DNA from: Calonectria ilicicola
Lineage: Eukaryota; Ascomycota; Sordariomycetes; Hypocreales; Nectriaceae
Direction of reading: 5' to 3'
Assembly (NCBI GenBank): GCA_020809705.1
Contig: CP085835.1
Span: 3,844,001 to 3,908,000, forward strand
Length of the DNA: 64,000 nucleotides
The position numbers and the translations under genes were made by a program. The notes under the pieces were generated by a model that did no database searches, was not told the origin of the DNA, and saw only the letters and a program-made list of their open reading frames with translations. Each line of letters begins with the position of its first letter. Position 1 is the stretch's first letter. Below, piece after piece: positions 8,807 through 62,171 of this stretch.

Positions 8807-10349
8807 TTAGAATAAAAATACCTGATCGGTCACCTTTGCCGACAGTCCTGGCTCCTTGAATCCCAATTGAACTAGACTCTTCTTCATTGAATTGATCATT
8901 GGCGGCGGACCGCAGAGTAACACCTTGGAATCATCCAGCGCCGGTGGCAACTTCTGCTTTATTAGATCCGCAGTGATGAAGCCCGAGCTACCCTTCCAAC
9001 TTGGAGGCGGCTTTGCCAAGACGTAGTCGACAGAGAATTTGCCAGGACATAGCTGCGCGAATGCATCCAGTTCATCGCGAAGTAAAATGTCGTCCTCTTG
9101 GTTACTGGCATAGATCAGGCTAATCTTGGTGTTATCAGACTCGTCTTCGCAAATGGCTCGGATGAGCTGGTACATGGGAGTGATTCCAGTGCCGCCAGCT
9201 ATCATTCCAATATGTTTCGCGTATTTTGTCGAGTACTGCATGGCTCCTTTTGGTCCTCGAATCTCAATCGTGTCGCCAATCTTCATGCTTTGAAGATGCT
9301 TGGACATCATGCCCTGGTCATACACTTTGACTAACAACTCGATCCGACCGAGATCGCTATTATTGGAAACTGGGGTGTACGAACGCGATACACTCTTGCC
9401 TTGAATGTCGGCGCGAAGCGCAATGTGCTGTCCAGTCGGCAAACCAAGGCGATCCTCAGGGTGCGGCAGCGCGAAGACAAACTTGTACACGTTCGGTGAT
9501 ACCAATATGCTGCGGACGAGCTTGAAACTTCTCCACTGCTGAGGGTCGAGTACGCGCGATGACGGCAGCGGTGCTGGTGACGTCTTTGCTCCCTTTAACC
9601 CGGCCTTCTTGATCGGATGGACCCGGTCATAACGCGCAGGGCGTCTTACCACTTGGCGTTTGAAGCCGGCATGTATGTCAAACTTGGACCACGCCCAGTA
9701 GGACAGCCCAGCAGTTGCTGATATCTCTGCAATGGTTGCGATCCCGATGCCGTACCAAAATGCTCCACCGCGGATCCGAGGAGACGCAGCAGAGTGTTGG
9801 AGGACCTTCTTCACAAGACTCCAATCAAAATCTCTGGCAGCCCATGCCGCTGCTCCCAATCCAGCCGTCACTGCAAGCTTACCGATGGCTCGAATGAAGC
9901 GGTCAGACGCCTTCTCAGAACGCCTTGAAATTGGAGCAACCGCTGCATTCTGAGTGATAATCTCGAATGTAGGACGGTAGATTTCAACTTTCTGGGCTTG
10001 TTCCTATTGTTTGTCAGAATGTGTGGCTATTAACAAAGTGTTGTGAATACTCTACATCTTCTGGTAAATCGCCAACGTACATGGCCTCCAATTCGTCGCG
10101 GGCTTCTGCCGAGTGGCCAATGTTCTCAAAGTCGTCCGTAGCATCGGCTCCAGCTACCTCTAGCAAGATGGCACCACCACCAGGATGTTCCTCAAGATAT
10201 TTTGTTACATCGTACACTAGATGTTTGTTCAGCATCATTTGCCATTTGATCTATACGCCAGACACCTTACCTTTATTGTGGATTATCATCCAGGCATCAT
10301 CAGGTTTGTTGTGCTTTTTCACTTCTGTGAGAGTTGTTGTGGTAGACAT
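8807..10349 (-). CDS. Cytochrome b5 - NADH-cytochrome b5 reductase fusion protein
   Basis: Three exons (10349-10271, 10216-10035, 10003-8807) join in frame to give 485 residues. The N-terminal ~80 residues are a cytochrome b5 heme domain: the core EEHPGGGAILLEVAGADAT carries the first heme-ligand histidine and IGHSAEA the second. A hydrophobic segment follows around residues 130-190, so the protein is probably membrane-bound. The rest is a ferredoxin-NADP reductase-like flavoprotein: RSYTPVS binds FAD, GGTGITPMYQLIRAI and CGPPPM bind the nicotinamide nucleotide, and the C-terminus DQVFLF is typical of b5 reductases. It should pass electrons from NAD(P)H through FAD to its own b5 heme and on to an acceptor. 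The divergently transcribed P450 507 bases away is the obvious candidate partner. The family call is firm; the partner is inferred. Confidence 0.88.
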
Positions 10350-54987: not shown

Positions 54988-55879
54988 GATCTTTAGGAGA
55001 AAAGTTTGCTCACACTTTCTTGGCCGCACAGACCAATATTAATAGCCCTTCAAGTTGTATGCCAGGATGATGGACATTGCGATATGAACACGTTTGATCA
55101 CAGCCGTATTCATAGATGTCACTAAAGCCGAAACTACTTATCAGTCAAAATGAATGTTTCAAATTACTATTAAATTAACAGTCGCTAGTGATGAAATTCC
55201 ATGTAAAGTTGCTGGAGTAGTTGGATCTTGGCCAATAACCGGCTGAGGAATTTGCCAAAAGTTCGGCTCATAGAGAAATGTCAGCTCTGCTCATTTTTAT
55301 AGTTGGGTTTACACTCTCTGATAGACCAATTTTAACTTCTCATGGTTCACCTCAGCTCTAAGCTTAATTGAACACTTTGCCGGATGTCTCGGTTATCTAA
55401 ATGACCTCGCCGCTTTCCACTATTCGGTGAGCTGGTTGAGATTTCCAAGACTAATTTACGTAAAGTGTAGCAAGCTGAGAGACAAAGGTCCCAAAGAACT
55501 GCGGACCGTCTATTCTTGGCGACAATAGTACCATTCCACGTGCCAATGACATCCCAGATATTGACCACTGACTCGCAATGGGTCCCACTCCCGCATTCCT
55601 TCACCTTCTGCTCCCTTCCTATGTCTCTTGTCAGCCTCATAGTTTTCGAATCACAATCCTTAGATTTTCAAAGATAAATAACATGGCCGGAGGAATGTAT
55701 TTGAGTATGCCAAGCAAATGTGCACTGACCTGACTAACCTTTTATCATCAGAGTGGCAGATTTCATCTATTTAAACCGAGTGCAGCCTCCCCCAATCTAT
55801 CAAGCATTATCCATTCTTATTTGCATAAACCAACATCCAGTTCCAAAATCAGCAAAAAGACTAGAAAACTCACTTCATC
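54988..55879. other. Intergenic stretch
   Basis: Normal-composition DNA between the 3' half of the interrupted gene and the small secreted protein gene. A minus-strand open frame (55347-55640) has no recognisable domain. A TATA-like TCTATTTAAACC near 55766-55777, about 110 bases before the ATG at 55880, probably serves the downstream gene. The interrupted gene might have a further exon here if GTACGT at 54959 is used as a donor. Confidence 0.4.
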
Positions 55880-56287
55880 ATGAAGGTTCTTAGTTCTATC
55901 CTCTTTTTATTCGTGGCGGGATCTTTTGCAGGTCCAGTGCCTCAAGAAGAACAAAGCTGCCAGGTATTAAAGATTAACCCTGCGATGATTCCGGAAGACA
56001 CTTATTGACTAAATTTCACCTTTTCTTCTACATAGGAAAATTCCGAGTATACTTTGTGTGGGTCAGCGTGCCCACTTACTTGCGAATCTAGAAACAAGTT
56101 TTGGGGCTGTATTGCAGTGTGTCGCCAGGGTTGTCGATGCAAGGCCAATTACATTTTGAACAGCGTCAGTCCTTCTAATCGCAGATAAGATATTTTGAGA
56201 TAGTCTACTAACAGTAAGGTATAGGAGGGCCAATGCATTTTGGAGTCGGAATGTCCCAAGCAGACACCTACGTTAAATGGCTCTTAA
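55880..56287 (+). CDS. Small secreted ten-cysteine protein with a TIL (trypsin inhibitor-like) domain
   Basis: Three exons, 55880-55963, 56036-56164 and 56225-56287, join in phase 0 to give 91 residues. The first ~17 residues (MKVLSSILFLFVAGSFA) are a signal peptide. The mature part contains exactly ten cysteines with TIL-like spacing: a leading SCQ, then LCGSACPLTC, GCIAVCRQGCRC, and finally GQCILESEC in the third exon. TIL domains use five disulfides and usually inhibit serine proteases, in animals and in some fungi. A secreted protease inhibitor or effector-like role is possible but unproven. The exons are too short to stand out as open frames, so the gene is easily overlooked. The intron ends are GT-AG, though the last donor (GTCAGT) is weak. 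Confidence 0.78.
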
Positions 56288-56594
56288 GCGAAGAGTGCTG
56301 GATTATGTTGCCCAGTCGCCTTATTACACTACCTCATCAGTCATCTCTGGCTTCTGATGTCTCCAACGGGTACCTGGAACATTCCAAATTCAAGATTTGT
56401 TGGGCGGTGGGAAGCCATTTAAGATAATCCATTCAGATTTGGAATCTGAGATGTTTGGTTTATTAATTTAACATATTCCGCATGCACTTTATGCGGGATG
56501 TCAGCATTCTAAATGCTTCATAGTAGCTCGCAATACAAGAAATAAAACTAACCATCATTACTAAGCTCCGCAATCTTTTTTCTGCATAACTATA
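56288..56594. other. Short convergent intergenic stretch
   Basis: About 300 bases between the 3' ends of the TIL-type gene and the iron-site oxygenase gene. It contains open but apparently non-coding sequence. Nothing was recognised. Confidence 0.45.
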
Positions 56595-57716
56595 CTATGC
56601 CGGAGACGGCTCCACGACTTGAGCTGACTCCGAAATAAAACCCGTCTTTTCATTTTCTTCTTCTGCTTCTCTGTCCTTTTCATACTGATCAAGACAAAGT
56701 TCGAAAACCCGGTTCTGATAGTCTATGATGCATGCGTAAGCTTATGGTTCAACGTGGGGGTATAATTTGACATACACGCGACGCCGTTTTCCTTTTCTGG
56801 ATTGAGAATACCCTCAGTGTAAATGCCTGCCTCAAGGTTTCTTTGGGCCTTCTCGCAAAGTTCGTGATCCTCGATTCCCACGGTTCGCGCAAATTTGTAA
56901 TAAGACTCGAATGTTTCTGAACCAAGTGGTGAGATGTGATAATAGTCAAATTCCATGGTGGTTTGAGAAGGGTTGTCCGATGGGCACGTGCGGAATGACG
57001 ACATGCCACCTCCGTACAGGTTCAGTGTAGAATTAGGGAAGAAGTATAGGAACAGTCCATCATTGGGTTTATCCGACTCTGCAATGTGCTGTGAGTAATT
57101 TTGTCGGTTCAACACCTTGTAAGTCGGTTGCTTGTACACCTTCGCAAATCCTGGGTGAGCAAACGGACAGTGAAGGCATTCTTGGTACCCGTCGATTAAT
57201 GTCTTCCAGTTGTACTTTCCCACATAATTAAGGCTTCTTCTGACTGGAAACTGCGTAAAATCGATGCGTGATATTAATTCCTCTAGGCCAGGAAAATATT
57301 CCTCAAAGCTGATTGTTTCGTCGGATAGTGTGATGAATAGCAGGCCTGTTGGTGTCATGTGGTAACGAATCTTGGAGCCCTACAAGATTTTGTCAGAACA
57401 TTGAGAGATTCACATCTATGGTTGTTTTACCTTTTTTAATTCTTCATCTTCTAAAAATACTTCAATGCTTCTCCAATCAGCGGAATTCCGCCGAACAACG
57501 AATTTAACCTGTGCCATTTCGTGCGAGTAACGCTCTCCCACATTTGGCCATCTAGAAGCTGCACCAAGGAGAATCCATGACTAAAAGCGTTAGAATGCAT
57601 CTTATAGTAGGTTTAATTCATGCACATACCTTGAGAAAAATTGAGCACCTTTCAAGGCCATATATGGCCTTGCTGGTGAACCATGAGGCTGGGAGGGTGG
57701 TTGGACAAGTTGTCAT
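56595..57716 (-). CDS. Rieske-oxygenase relative with the mononuclear iron site but no Rieske domain
   Basis: Exons 57716-57630, 57580-57431, 57379-56776 and 56722-56595 join in frame to 322 residues. The N-terminus (LPASWFTSKAIYGLERCSIF, then SWILLGAASRWPNVGERY) matches the start of choline monooxygenase-like alpha subunits. The ~70-residue stretch that should follow, with the CxH...CxxH Rieske ligands, is absent; about 25 unrelated residues bridge to TPTGLLFITLSDE. The catalytic domain then looks complete. NWKTLIDGYQECLHCPFAHP holds the bridging Asp and the two His iron ligands, and EDHELCEKAQRNL probably holds the acidic ligand. The ending NGVAYYQNRVFELCLDQ is typical. An oxygenase of this type needs electrons from a Rieske cluster, which it lacks. 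The divergent neighbour at 58484 has one. The model is firm because all splices keep frame and restore conserved motifs. Confidence 0.85.
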
Positions 57717-58483
57717 TTTGATTGTGCTTTGGGAATGCATTGCAGATTGATCCGAGATATCGTCACAGACTTGCAATATATACATTCGCGCTGAGTGAAA
57801 AGTCAATCTAAATTTGGAATGGTGGGTGCTAAATCTACGTAACGATTCCGATGACGACGATCCAATCAATTTCCTCGCTCATGAGGTCCATCAAAATCTC
57901 CACCAGTAACTACCATTCCCATTTGGGTAAAAACTTCCACCGATACCAAGCCAATGAAAACATTTGCATGATTAATACGGTGTGATGGTCGGCAAACGTG
58001 GTTCCATGCAATCCACAACATCTGTCCACGAATGACCGAGCCACGGGCGGGATGCTGCTCTAACCAGAGTGGGCCAAGATTCAGGCCCATCACCGGGACA
58101 CGCCTGGGGATCGGACTTCTGCAAAGGGAAATCAAGTCCACCATTTCACCGAGAATGTTGACCAGGATTTTTTATTTCTGATTAACCATAGTCCAAAGAT
58201 AATGATTGGTAGCGGCGAAATGTTGCTTGTCTCCGGCGTGGGGACGATGTGCATCGTGAGGATCAATTTTCCAACTTGGGTTTACCACGCCAACCATATC
58301 GTACAGCGTTGCAAAAGATTGAGTGTCATATGCGCTGTAATTTTTCACAGTTGCCTTTTTAAGGTGTATGTTCCAAAATGAGAAAACTAGGTTTCCATTA
58401 TAATTCAACCCGTTGGTCATCGCTTTTGGCTCCGTTGAACTCTGCAAGCAAGCTTCAGCATCAAACTACGGGATTATTTTAAA
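57717..58483. promoter_or_regulatory. Divergent promoter region of the two Rieske-oxygenase relatives
   Basis: This 767-base spacer is head to head between the two genes and so should contain both promoters, which makes joint regulation likely. Minus-strand open frames at 57866-58144 and 58172-58447 show no domain and no splice continuity with the gene at 57716. I see no convincing regulator site. Confidence 0.4.
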
Positions 58484-59932
58484 ATGATAGAACACATCAC
58501 CTCCCTTTCCCCAGGAATTATTGGGGGTCTTTTTCTCTCAGTGATATTCATTTCCCTTTCTATCTGGAAATTCGCTGAGAGAATTTCCATTACACCCAAC
58601 CGCCCCAGACTACGGTCTCCCTCAGACACAACGACAAGTCAAGCCCAAAAACCAGTCGAGCTTCCCGAATGGTATTGGAGAGATCCAAAGGGCTTCCAGC
58701 TTGAGAGACGCGCCATCTTCAGCAAGGTTAGTGTTGCTCCATAGATATCCAAACTCGACTCACTCTCCGCCAGACTTGGATTTGTGTCAGTCATGTTGGC
58801 CGCTTCGCACAGCCTGGGGACTACGTTTCACATGACTTGGCCAGCTTTCAATTCTTCCTCATACTAGGCAAAGACGGCTTAGTGCGCGCATTCCACAATG
58901 TTTGTCGGCATCGTGCCTTTCCCGTTACTAAAAAAGCTTCTGGATCATCCACTGTTCTTAGCTGCCAGTATCATGGTTGGAGCTACAACACCAAGGGTGA
59001 ACTGATCAAAGCACCGCAATTCGATGGCATTTCGGGCTTTGATAAATCCCAAAACAGCCTGTTCGAGATTCAAACCCGCGTTGATAGCTCCGGGTTTATT
59101 CACATTAACTTGAATGGCCTGAAGCAGGATAGCAATGATGAAGTGTCAACGGCACAAAAGATTGATGAACCTGCCGGCATCAACCGTGATTCACAATACG
59201 TCCACACTGTTGAATTAACGGGCAAGTTCAATTGGAAGATTGCAGGTCAGTTCTTATCTATGTACAGAAACCGCGACCAAAGCCCTCTCTAATAGCAAAG
59301 TAGGAGATGACCGTTTGCAGAAATGCATGCCACAGGCAATGGCAGGGATTTCCAGAAGTGGAAGGTTTAACTTCTTCTCCAAGCCCAGTTCCAAAACCCC
59401 TACACAGTTCCAATTCTTTCCATTAACCGCCGTCTTCATGGAGAAAAATGCTCCGTTTTGGTACCAAATCACGTATTATCCAGATTCGGCTGAACAAACA
59501 CGCGTGAGATGCGACGTGTACATGACCAAAAATGCCAATGTTACGAGTTTCGACGATGCCTCAAAAGAGCGCTTAGAAACAAAACTAAAGCTAGTGATTC
59601 AACAATATGAGGCGGCATTTTCAGAGTTTACAAATCCTCAGCATGTTCCAGTTCAGACAGAGCGTAAGTTGGTCCTAAACGCTTCAAGTATTTTCGAAAT
59701 CTGACCAGTTCCCTGCTTAGGAAATCAATTTTTAATTGCCAATTTGGTCAAATCTCACCTCAAAGAAGAGGAATTGAGAGGAACAGAGATCAAACCAGCA
59801 TCGGTCCAGCAATGCAGGAGTGCAAACTTTACAAAAGCAGAAGGAAGTGCGTTGCCCTTGATAATTATTTTTTTCACGGACATGAAGCTAAATTATAAAA
59901 ACAGTCTGTCGGGCGATGGAATGCTCAAGTAG
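58484..59932 (+). CDS. Membrane-anchored Rieske [2Fe-2S] protein with a degenerate oxygenase domain
   Basis: Exons 58484-58726, 58774-59245, 59301-59663 and 59721-59932 join in frame to 429 residues. A hydrophobic helix (residues ~11-30, IIGGLFLSVIFISLSIW) should anchor it. LPEWYWRDPKGFQLERRAIF is the usual family start. The Rieske site is complete: NVCRHRAFPV gives CxH and LSCQYHGWSY gives CxxH. After FNWKIA, where relatives have D-x-Y-x-E-C-x-H-C-x4-H, it continues VGDDRLQKCMPQ and contains no HxxxxH or HxxxH pair, so the mononuclear iron site is missing. The rest (FFPLTAVFMEKNAPFWYQI, VRCDVYM) is recognisable as a ring-hydroxylase-like C-terminal fold. It probably acts as an electron carrier or partner, not a full oxygenase. 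Family call sure, role inferred. Confidence 0.85.
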
Positions 59933-60162
59933 CAAGCTTGATTGGTAAGAACGGAGTGGCAAATTGTAGAGCCTGTGGACGGTGTACCATCTATGAGATA
60001 TGGGACAATGAAGGTGGATTTTAATTCCGGTATCAATTAGCCATTGCGAATGGTGGTTGGGAGGCTATTGAAAAAGAAAATCGGATAGTCATTCTTCGAA
60101 CAAATAGACATGAGTCATATCAACTAATTAACATCCCGCTCCTTAATAAAATAACCACTCGC

Positions 60163-62171
60163 CTACTCATAACCTATTTTGTACAGCCACTCAAAATCAG
60201 GGTCATAACCGACATGGATACGAAAAGGATTGACTCTCGAAATGTCGCGAAACCAGACCTCGCGGCCCCCATCATCGCTTACAATCTTTTCCGCTTTGCC
60301 CGTCCCTTTTTCACCCTTGCCATGGAATTTTGATGCAAACTCCCATGACCCGCGGGACGCTGTCAGCTTTTTAAGATTACACCTATCCTCCCAAACATAC
60401 GGTCTGCCACTATCCAGCTCAGATGACTCAGAAGGCCCTTGGCGGTCCAGAAAAGCTTTTGTGACTTTGGAAATCATCGCCAAGGTATCTTCCTGCTGCA
60501 TTTGCATGAACCAAGTGCAGAAATCAATTGAGGAGAGATTGTCGCCGCAAGCAAGCGCTTGAGCCATCTCGTCCTGGTTGGAGAAAGCAGAGAGTTAGTG
60601 AATATTCTTGGAGAAAGGGAGATTAGCCACTCACGATTTTGTCTGTGTCTGGTACAAACTGGAATTCTCTCAGTTCGGGTAATCCATTCACGATTTCCCG
60701 GACGGTCTGCGGTGCCAGTCTGCGAACTGACCTGCCGCTGCTAACTCCGCCAATATATATCTTCAGACTTTTGAGGCCGCGGTGCTTAAGAATAGCCTGC
60801 AGCATTTCATCATGGAATCCGGGGTTGGGGCCCCCATCATCAGCTGAGTATTCTCCATAGCGATCGAATTTCAAAGTCTCCAATGAATCGAATGAAGAGA
60901 TGAAGCGGCACTTGGCCTCAAATTTACCTTGAGCGTCTCGTCCTTCTCTTTCGTCCATTTCCAAGGACAAATGTCGCAGGCTGAGGCGTTTACCTTGAGA
61001 TGATAGACGTTTGGCTGAAGCCGTGAGGCTCTGAAATAGCTCATCTTCTTCCTCGTAAAAACTACCCACATCAAGCGAAGTGAGCTTTGTAAAGTCAATG
61101 GCCTTTTTCATGGCTTCAACGGTCCCCCTTTCGACACTATAGCATTTCAGAGATAGCGATTTCAATTCCTTCAACGCCGCACAATTTTCCCAATTAACCA
61201 GCAAATAAGAGTTTGGGTACAAACTGCTAACATGAACATCCAAGCTCTCCAGTGTAGAAGCGGAATTCACGATGATGGATTGCAGGTGTTTGCGGTCGGA
61301 GTATGACCAACGAACATCGCTAAGGCACAAGTGCTTGAGGTTCTTGACTTTAGCCAATGCGTCCGTTTCCACCTTGTCCTCATTGCCTAGAAATAGGCTA
61401 AGGGCCTTGAGATGGTTTAGCGATGCGATACTCTTGGCAATTGACCTACAAAGCCTAGTTAGCAGGTTCGAAGTAAGGTTTTGGTGGTTTTTGCGCTCAC
61501 TCAGTGAGTACTCGAGTCTCGAGAGCCTCCAAATTGACCAGATTCTTGAGCACCTCTTCCATATATCGTTCTACAATATACTTGTGCTTTCGCCCAGGAT
61601 CGGCAACACCAATTACTAGTTGTTGTACATAGGATGCACAAGACGGTATTTTCTTTTCATCCAAGCAAGTGGGATACCGTTCTTGCTGGCCTTTGTACTT
61701 GCCCTCCTTCTTCAGCTGCTTCTTTTGGCCAATAGACAGGAGCGGCTCTGTTTTGCGAATGAGCTTGGGAATGTGGGCATGAAACATGGCAGCAACGGCG
61801 ATGCGTCGGTAAAGACGAGGCGTCATCCTTGCGTGGAAGTCTTTGCAGGTTCGTCCCAGAGCATGGATGGTTTTGATGTCATGGATGTTGTTTAAAACCA
61901 TAGACAGGATTTCGGGTGGCAGGGAGTGGAGACGATCTTGGGCGCTTGACGGGGCATTTGGCTTTGACCCTTTGCCTTTAACAGGCTTTTGTGTGGCCTT
62001 TGCTTGTCCTTTGACACCCTTGGATGCGTCTGGTTGAAGACGCTGTCTCTTAGCCACGGGTTTGGCAGCTGGGGCTGGTTTTTTGACTTGAACAGGGAGC
62101 TGAACTGGGTCCTCTGCAGGTGTTGTGGATTCAAGTTGCTGTTGTCGGGTACGGCTTCTAGTTGACACCAT
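60163..62171 (-). CDS. F-box protein with leucine-rich-repeat-like C-terminus
   Basis: Exons 62171-61501, 61445-60635 and 60573-60163 join in frame to 630 residues. The first ~75 residues are basic, Pro/Lys/Gln-rich and probably disordered. An F-box follows at ~80-125 (LHSLPPEILSMVLNNIHDIKTIHALGRTCKDF, written here in part), which binds Skp1. Irregular leucine-rich repeats with LKHLCLSDVRW, LKELKSLSLKC and LETLKFDRYG segments follow, as in substrate receptors of SCF ubiquitin ligases. The C-terminal ~135 residues have no recognised domain. The substrate is unknown. Fungal genomes carry many such genes, and nothing here links it to the oxygenase pair. Confidence 0.82.

Follow-up and report, generated by a model that had tools for sequence, protein, structure and literature searches.

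Two adjacent and divergently transcribed genes of the ascomycete Calonectria ilicicola, here termed M and P, divide between them the two metal sites of a Rieske oxygenase: M keeps the mononuclear iron site without the Rieske domain, P keeps the Rieske cluster site without the iron ligands, and together they hold both. They lie in a stretch of 64,000 nucleotides that was analysed as a whole (the window; C11:3844001-3908000, contig CP085835.1 of assembly GCA_020809705.1). The sites that each gene has kept and lost and the constraint on the kept halves are evident in the sequences, as is, given a predicted five-exon model of P, a targeting signal for cytosolic Fe-S assembly (CIA) at the end of P. 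At the DNA level the split is genuine and goes beyond chance or simple decay, and the description of M and P as complementary half-enzymes, each constrained in the half that it retains, is well supported at this level. In Rieske oxygenase trimers electrons cross between subunits, so that each interface uses one site per chain, which would have made such a division possible after duplication. The best explanation of the pair, to which we give an even chance, is that M and P work in trans, with P passing electrons to M. They may then be complementary half-subunits of one CntA-like, group V Rieske oxygenase, whose substrate would probably be a quaternary-ammonium compound.

The two genes and their products

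Rebuilt from the DNA, M contains four exons separated by GT-AG introns of 49, 51 and 53 nt (Table 1). Its match above the Pfam cut-offs is Ring_hydroxyl_A (E = 6.5e-21), and Rieske gives no Pfam match at E ≤ 1. The complete mononuclear-iron motif that an earlier note on this DNA had claimed for M is present, with E146, H149 and H154, and D250 supplies, by alignment, the third ligand of a 2-His-1-carboxylate site that follows the NWK motif. The Rieske ligands (CxH...CxxH) are absent from the chain, and M alone fails as a Rieske oxygenase alpha subunit. Compared with five full-length paralogues from the same genome, its Rieske segment is shorter by 43-45 aligned residues, all four ligands included; the loss that had been proposed is genuine, at a smaller size than the ~70 residues first put forward. 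The residue bridging the electron path, originally described as Asp, is a Glu (E146), as in the carnitine monooxygenase CntA, and the C-terminus of M (...EPSPA) is without a CIA signal.

In P, as had been stated, the Rieske site is complete (C125, H127, C145 and H148 are kept) and the iron-ligand histidines after NWK are gone; no histidine pair follows that motif, and P alone likewise fails as an alpha subunit. On the five-exon model, Rieske matches residues 82-166 (E = 1.6e-15), Ring_hydroxyl_A gives no Pfam match at E ≤ 0.01, and Pfam finds no reductase domain, unlike the Rieske-reductase fusion of bacterial NdmD. The four-exon model (429 aa), which was used for the first Pfam scan and for the PDB sequence match, gave a Ring_hydroxyl_A match of E = 0.023, below the Pfam cut-off, so the catalytic remnant of P is recognisable but degenerate.

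Four intact exons had been reported for each gene, which is accurate for M, whereas P is predicted to be intact across five exons and to end at 59948 rather than 59932. The first model read through an intron of 58 nt, which made its end wrong, and its C-terminus was at odds with the paralogues. A single GT[AG]NG donor, at 59847, occurs within 59745-59930; if acceptors must follow C or T and introns measure 45-120 nt, it allows two models. The acceptor at 59904 gives the end ...AEGICRAMECSSSKLDW-stop, like the tails of the paralogues (FCRGVCESS...LAW), and the resulting five-exon model of 415 residues, with introns of 47-58 nt, is taken as correct. On this prediction P ends in KLDW, of which LDW is an exact CIA targeting tripeptide under the consensus [LIM]-[DES]-[WF] (PMC10623007). 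At its N-terminus, P carries a hydrophobic segment with a Kyte-Doolittle mean of 2.03, against a maximum of ≤1.34 anywhere in the other eight members of the family; this segment is a possible membrane anchor.

A hidden exon with the lost part of M or P was considered and rejected: the introns (49-53 and 47-58 nt, respectively) are too short, and a six-frame scan of 57717-58800, 59949-61000 and 55500-56594 with the patterns CxH-x10-30-CxxH and [DE]xxHx4H found no Rieske or iron-site motif. The region between the two start codons is a possible shared promoter.

Table 1. Features of the M/P locus (window positions).
Feature	Position	Strand	Remarks
Gene M, iron-only half	56595..57716	-	Ring_hydroxyl_A domain, no Rieske domain; 322 aa
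Exons of M	57716-57630, 57580-57431, 57379-56776, 56722-56595	-	rebuilt from DNA
Iron-site motif of M, DGYQECLHCPFAHP, residues 142-155	57152..57193	-	Y144, bridging E146, C147, ligand H149, C150, ligand H154
Region between the two start codons, 767 bp	57717..58483	.	divergent genes
Gene P, Rieske-only half	58484..59948	+	415 aa; no iron ligands after NWK
Exons of P (predicted five-exon model)	58484-58726, 58774-59245, 59301-59663, 59721-59846, 59905-59948	+	
Hydrophobic N-terminal segment of P, residues 12-30	58517..58573	+	Kyte-Doolittle mean 2.03 over 19 residues
Rieske cluster site of P, CRH...CQYH	58903..58974	+	ligands C125, H127, C145, H148
Predicted intron 4 of P, GTGCGT...AAACAG, 58 nt	59847..59904	+	read through in first model
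Predicted exon 5 of P, end ...CRAMECSSSKLDW-stop	59905..59948	+	exact [LIM]-[DES]-[WF] CIA tripeptide

Constraint on the kept halves and a second pair

The two halves are not chance resemblances: the best PDB sequence match of both proteins is CntA (E = 2.1e-13 for M; 4.8e-32 for P in its four-exon model). AlphaFold2 models of single exons (exon 3 of M, 201 aa; exon 2 of P, 157 aa), built from input alignments of bacterial Rieske oxygenases that favour this fold, have a mean predicted local distance difference test (pLDDT) value of 86.1 and 87.1, respectively, and CntA chains are the best PDB fold match of both (template modelling score ~0.75 of the query), the two halves corresponding to the two domains of this single enzyme. 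A search for Rieske-less relatives in bacteria covered the best 80 of at least 497 loci, 78 of which contain the Rieske ligand motif (the exceptions have an ambiguous residue at one ligand, L087, or are cut by a contig end, L112). A scan of viral contigs found no relative. For conservation, 45 of 77 usable bacterial sequences were compared for the catalytic domain and 38 of 73 for the Rieske half. M keeps all eight columns that are invariant among the bacterial catalytic domains, the iron ligands and the bridging Glu included, and 14 of the 15 columns at 90% conservation, the miss being a change of Asn to Gly. P keeps 13 of the 14 columns that are invariant among the Rieske halves, including all four cluster ligands; the fourteenth, the Glu after NWK, falls outside the exon that was compared. 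Of the 20 columns conserved at 90%, P has 15; one of the missing five precedes that exon and four follow it, the latter being part of the lost iron motif.

The five full-length paralogues are 61-74% identical to one another in the Rieske segment, 53-73% in the iron site and 32-54% in the rest of the catalytic domain. The corresponding values for P against these paralogues are 48-55%, 20-30% and 23-30%; those for M are 41-56% over the iron site and 22-27% over the remaining catalytic domain. Full-length enzymes of which each half might be merely a decayed copy do exist in the genome, an objection that the earlier note had foreseen; P, however, is not merely decayed, because its Rieske half is far closer to the paralogues than its catalytic half.

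In the genome (69.9 Mb, 12 contigs), Pfam gives at least 10 Rieske matches and at least 11 exon-level Ring_hydroxyl_A matches. Three of the Rieske matches (L048, L049 and L050) read, from their frames rather than from a family search, as nitrite-reductase-like, AIF-like and complex III Rieske proteins, and the gene models of Rieske oxygenases number nine: five complete (L042, L044, L045, L046 and L047), two iron-only (M and M2) and two Rieske-only (P and P2). One of the complete genes, L046 (C9:4639001-4649000), shares its 10-kb stretch with a P450-like reading frame identified by eye. All seven cluster-bearing proteins end in [LI]-x-[WF] (LDW in P, IEW in L044, LSW in L046, LAW in L042, L045 and L047, and LAF in P2), whereas neither of the cluster-less proteins does (SPA in M, IAV in M2). 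Three of the seven tails (LDW, IEW and LSW) fit the published CIA consensus exactly; the other four have Ala in the middle. Independent genes would show such a division by chance with a probability of 1 in 36, but as the nine are related, the match between tail and cluster is supportive rather than decisive.

M2 (in L041, C2:1150001-1160000) and P2 (in L043, C11:580001-590000, at ~585 kb) resemble M and P in what they have lost. The cluster loops of M2 are gone from one uninterrupted exon, and the protein matches Ring_hydroxyl_A (E = 1.6e-22), with no Pfam match to Rieske. P2 matches both Rieske (E = 2.8e-15) and Ring_hydroxyl_A (E = 2.5e-12), and its iron motif reads NESYHSNTTTSD. The Glu and the first His are retained, and so is the later Asp, but neither group V cysteine nor the second His is left; P2 is thus less eroded than P. 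M2 and P2 have one intron each, at an identical position, and a tblastn search with M and P of the 10 kb surrounding either gene detected no further member of the family. Trees were built from 36 rows (the nine own genes and 27 bacterial sequences; IQ-TREE, LG+C20+F+G4) and from 22 rows (the nine and 13 bacterial sequences), and the sisterhood of M2 and P2 is firm in both (99/99 and 100/99, respectively). Codon adaptation, measured against one reference gene (the EF1A frame of L136, 386 codons), is 0.573 in M2 and 0.422 in P2, compared with 0.228-0.272 in the five full genes, 0.215 in M and 0.199 in P; these values support M2 and P2 as functional genes and offer nothing in favour of M and P. 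M2 and P2 are sisters with good support, have lost opposite sites and lead the nine genes in codon adaptation, and so do not look like decaying genes; the division of labour seen in M and P appears to have arisen separately in them.

As regards the surroundings of the locus, an AT-rich block (window ~26000-55000; GC content 0.17 over 28001-54000) ends ~2 kb from M; its TpA/ApT index of 1.27 and (CpA+TpG)/(ApC+GpT) index of 0.40 are as in repeats altered by repeat-induced point mutation (RIP). Together with the short introns, this RIP-like block points to a filamentous fungus. Between the block and M, a two-exon model drawn by eye on the plus strand (window 55881-56188) encodes a small peptide rich in cysteine, which appears to have a signal peptide and carries a trypsin-inhibitor-like (TIL) domain (PF01826, E = 1.1e-9). 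A flavoprotein reductase (FAD_binding_6 and NAD_binding_1; window 8810-10003, minus strand) lies on the far side of the AT-rich block, at ~47 kb from M and P. Two candidate electron donors, named by eye and both unlinked to the pair, occur elsewhere in the genome: a P450 apparently fused to a phthalate-dioxygenase-reductase (PDR)-type module (L131, C4:3766 kb), and a PDR-type reductase in an apparent MOSC-reductase-ferredoxin protein (L133, C1:4893 kb).

Origin of M and P and explanations of the split

In the 36-row tree, P joins the fungal clade at 100/98, and M branches beside this clade and beside two Obscuribacterales rows, in no firm order; in the 22-row tree, the eight fungal genes other than M group at 100/100. 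In the latter, constraining M to join P is 13.3 log units worse and is not rejected at 0.05 by the approximately unbiased test (p-AU 0.06), and neither is a clade of all nine fungal genes (p-AU 0.43). Different origins of the two genes are likely but not proven, and their derivation as halves or copies of one ancestral gene is disfavoured, because P falls inside and M outside the fungal clade in the free trees and the constraint is costly. On the 36-row tree, the loss of the Rieske site and the loss of the iron site require two changes each, also by the starred branches alone. The highest identity of M in the tree alignments is 32%, to a protein of Candidatus Obscuribacterales, in a link that is weakly supported (60/18). 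Two full-length Rieske oxygenases of Candidatus Obscuribacterales (L051 and L055) share the DGYQEC iron motif of M, and L051 also shares its GILNP..ENGVAYYQ tail; this likeness hints at a lineage of M separate from the other fungal paralogues.

The subunits of CntA form a trimer head to tail, and the distance from cluster to iron is 44 A inside one chain and 12.2 A over the interface between chains. The bridging Glu of CntA, E205, serves transfer from the Rieske cluster of the neighbouring subunit, the E205 mutants made being inactive (PMC7948474, PMC10952381). An interface between P and M would be equivalent to one such trimer interface, with the Rieske head from P and the catalytic tail from M. 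In a hetero-oligomer of this kind, P would receive its [2Fe-2S] cluster via its C-terminal LDW signal and the CIA machinery, possibly while seated in a membrane through its N-terminal segment, and a reductase would hand electrons to it. The Rieske domain of P would then dock on the catalytic domain of M, the electrons would reach the iron of M via E146, the counterpart of CntA E205, and M would activate O2 and oxidise the substrate. Since M is without a head and P without a working tail, the minimal unit may be a heterodimer or an alternating ring, and since only P has a strongly hydrophobic N-terminal segment, the complex may be membrane-seated. M and P may well work only as a pair.

The position of the two genes as divergent neighbours, 767 bp apart and with complementary losses, speaks for electron transfer from P to M, and several observations weigh against it. 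The end branches of M and P are the longest in either tree (2.12 and 2.15, respectively, in the 36-row tree), and their codon adaptation is the lowest among the nine genes, features that relaxed constraint would also give. They are not sisters in the free trees, so an interface between them would have had to adapt. The degenerate catalytic half of P may fold or assemble abnormally, and the five full-length paralogues could instead donate or accept the electrons. As for the parallel with the second pair, M2 and P2 are unlinked, on different contigs, and P2 retains one His, the Glu and the Asp of the iron site.

A wider reading, which is tentative and to our minds falls short of probable, is that homo-oligomeric Rieske oxygenases have twice in this genome been resolved into obligate pairs of a cluster-only protein with a CIA tail and an iron-only protein. 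M and P would then be a linked, divergent and perhaps membrane-anchored pair, and M2 and P2 an unlinked, strongly codon-adapted pair derived from sister genes.

The presence of five full-length paralogues in the same genome, to which the Rieske segment of P is 48-55% identical, raises the alternative that M and P join these paralogues as partial subunits of mixed trimers and change their activity or specificity; alpha3alpha'3 heterohexamers are indeed among the known Rieske oxygenases (PMC12445004). We regard this as unlikely, given that M is only 22-27% identical to the full paralogues over most of the catalytic domain and that M and P lie side by side in divergent orientation and have lost complementary sites. 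It is still less probable that the two have separate roles, P as a membrane-bound Rieske carrier for another enzyme, as its hydrophobic N-terminal segment, alone among the nine, might suggest, and M driven by another donor or by hydrogen peroxide, as CntA can be through a peroxide shunt that needs neither NADH nor its reductase (PMC7948474, PMC10952381). The two genes are adjacent and complementary, and M keeps the bridging Glu, for which a peroxide route would seem to have no use. Equally improbable is that M and P are pseudoenzymes, slowly decaying or regulatory, that lost catalysis after duplication and are adjacent by accident: a eukaryotic parallel is human CMAH, which became inactive when part of its Rieske region was lost, and the longest end branches and lowest codon adaptation would fit, but the frames and splice sites are intact (three introns in M, four in P), all invariant columns of the kept halves are preserved, P bears an exact CIA signal on the predicted five-exon model, the dinucleotide indices of M and P resemble those of the flanking genes although the RIP-like block ends ~2 kb away, and M2 and P2 are strongly codon-adapted. 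The original judgement that neither gene looks like a decaying pseudogene fits the frames and conserved columns and is tempered by the codon adaptation and branch lengths.

Significance and comparison with known systems

If P does serve M, a eukaryotic pair without unused sites would be a natural proof of inter-subunit transfer, would show a route from a homo-oligomer to an obligate hetero-oligomer, and would allow the rules that govern the interface and electron transfer to be tested cleanly. In nine of nine family members of this one genome the CIA-type tail goes with the cluster, which points to a simple means of finding and interpreting cluster-less relatives in other eukaryotes, and the unexpected second pair, M2 and P2, raises the interest of the finding. 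What may be new here is a split Rieske oxygenase in a eukaryote, a bacterial split (NdmC/NdmD, with NdmE) being already known. A limited open-access search of titles and abstract openings found no eukaryotic example, in line with the earlier note, although evidence of absence of this kind is weak. The assemblies named in a 2025 review are alpha3, alpha3beta3, alpha3alpha'3 and alpha3alpha3, and its available text contains no mention of eukaryot- or fung-; as NdmC is also unmentioned there, this silence says little (PMC12445004).

P groups with the full-length fungal paralogues and shares with them an N-terminal segment and the C-terminal [LI]-x-W, but they carry both sites. Neverland and choline monooxygenase, eukaryotic Rieske oxygenases, are single-chain enzymes that also have both. 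Like P in its five-exon model, these two are reported to end in a CIA tripeptide (PMC10623007). With CntA, a group V enzyme (PDB 6Y8J and 6ZGP), the correspondence is closer: M aligns with Y203, E205, C206, H208, C209 and H213 in the numbering given by the present alignment, and P has the cluster ligands. The marks of group V (the Tyr, the bridging Glu and the Cys pair) are found in M as Y144, E146, C147 and C150 and are not found in P. In CntA, however, both sites are on one chain of an alpha3 homotrimer, whereas M and P are two genes, and P, unlike CntA, has a hydrophobic N-terminus and a CIA signal.

The nearest functional parallel is bacterial. NdmC, of the 7-methylxanthine N7-demethylase NdmCDE, is a non-heme iron monooxygenase that, like M, lacks a Rieske cluster, and is thought to be served in trans by an extra Rieske cluster on NdmD (PMC4408171). 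M and P appear to share this arrangement of a Rieske-less oxygenase with a Rieske domain on another protein. In NdmCDE, however, that domain is joined in one protein with the reductase, NdmD, and NdmE is needed as well, whereas P is a degenerate oxygenase subunit and its host is a eukaryote.

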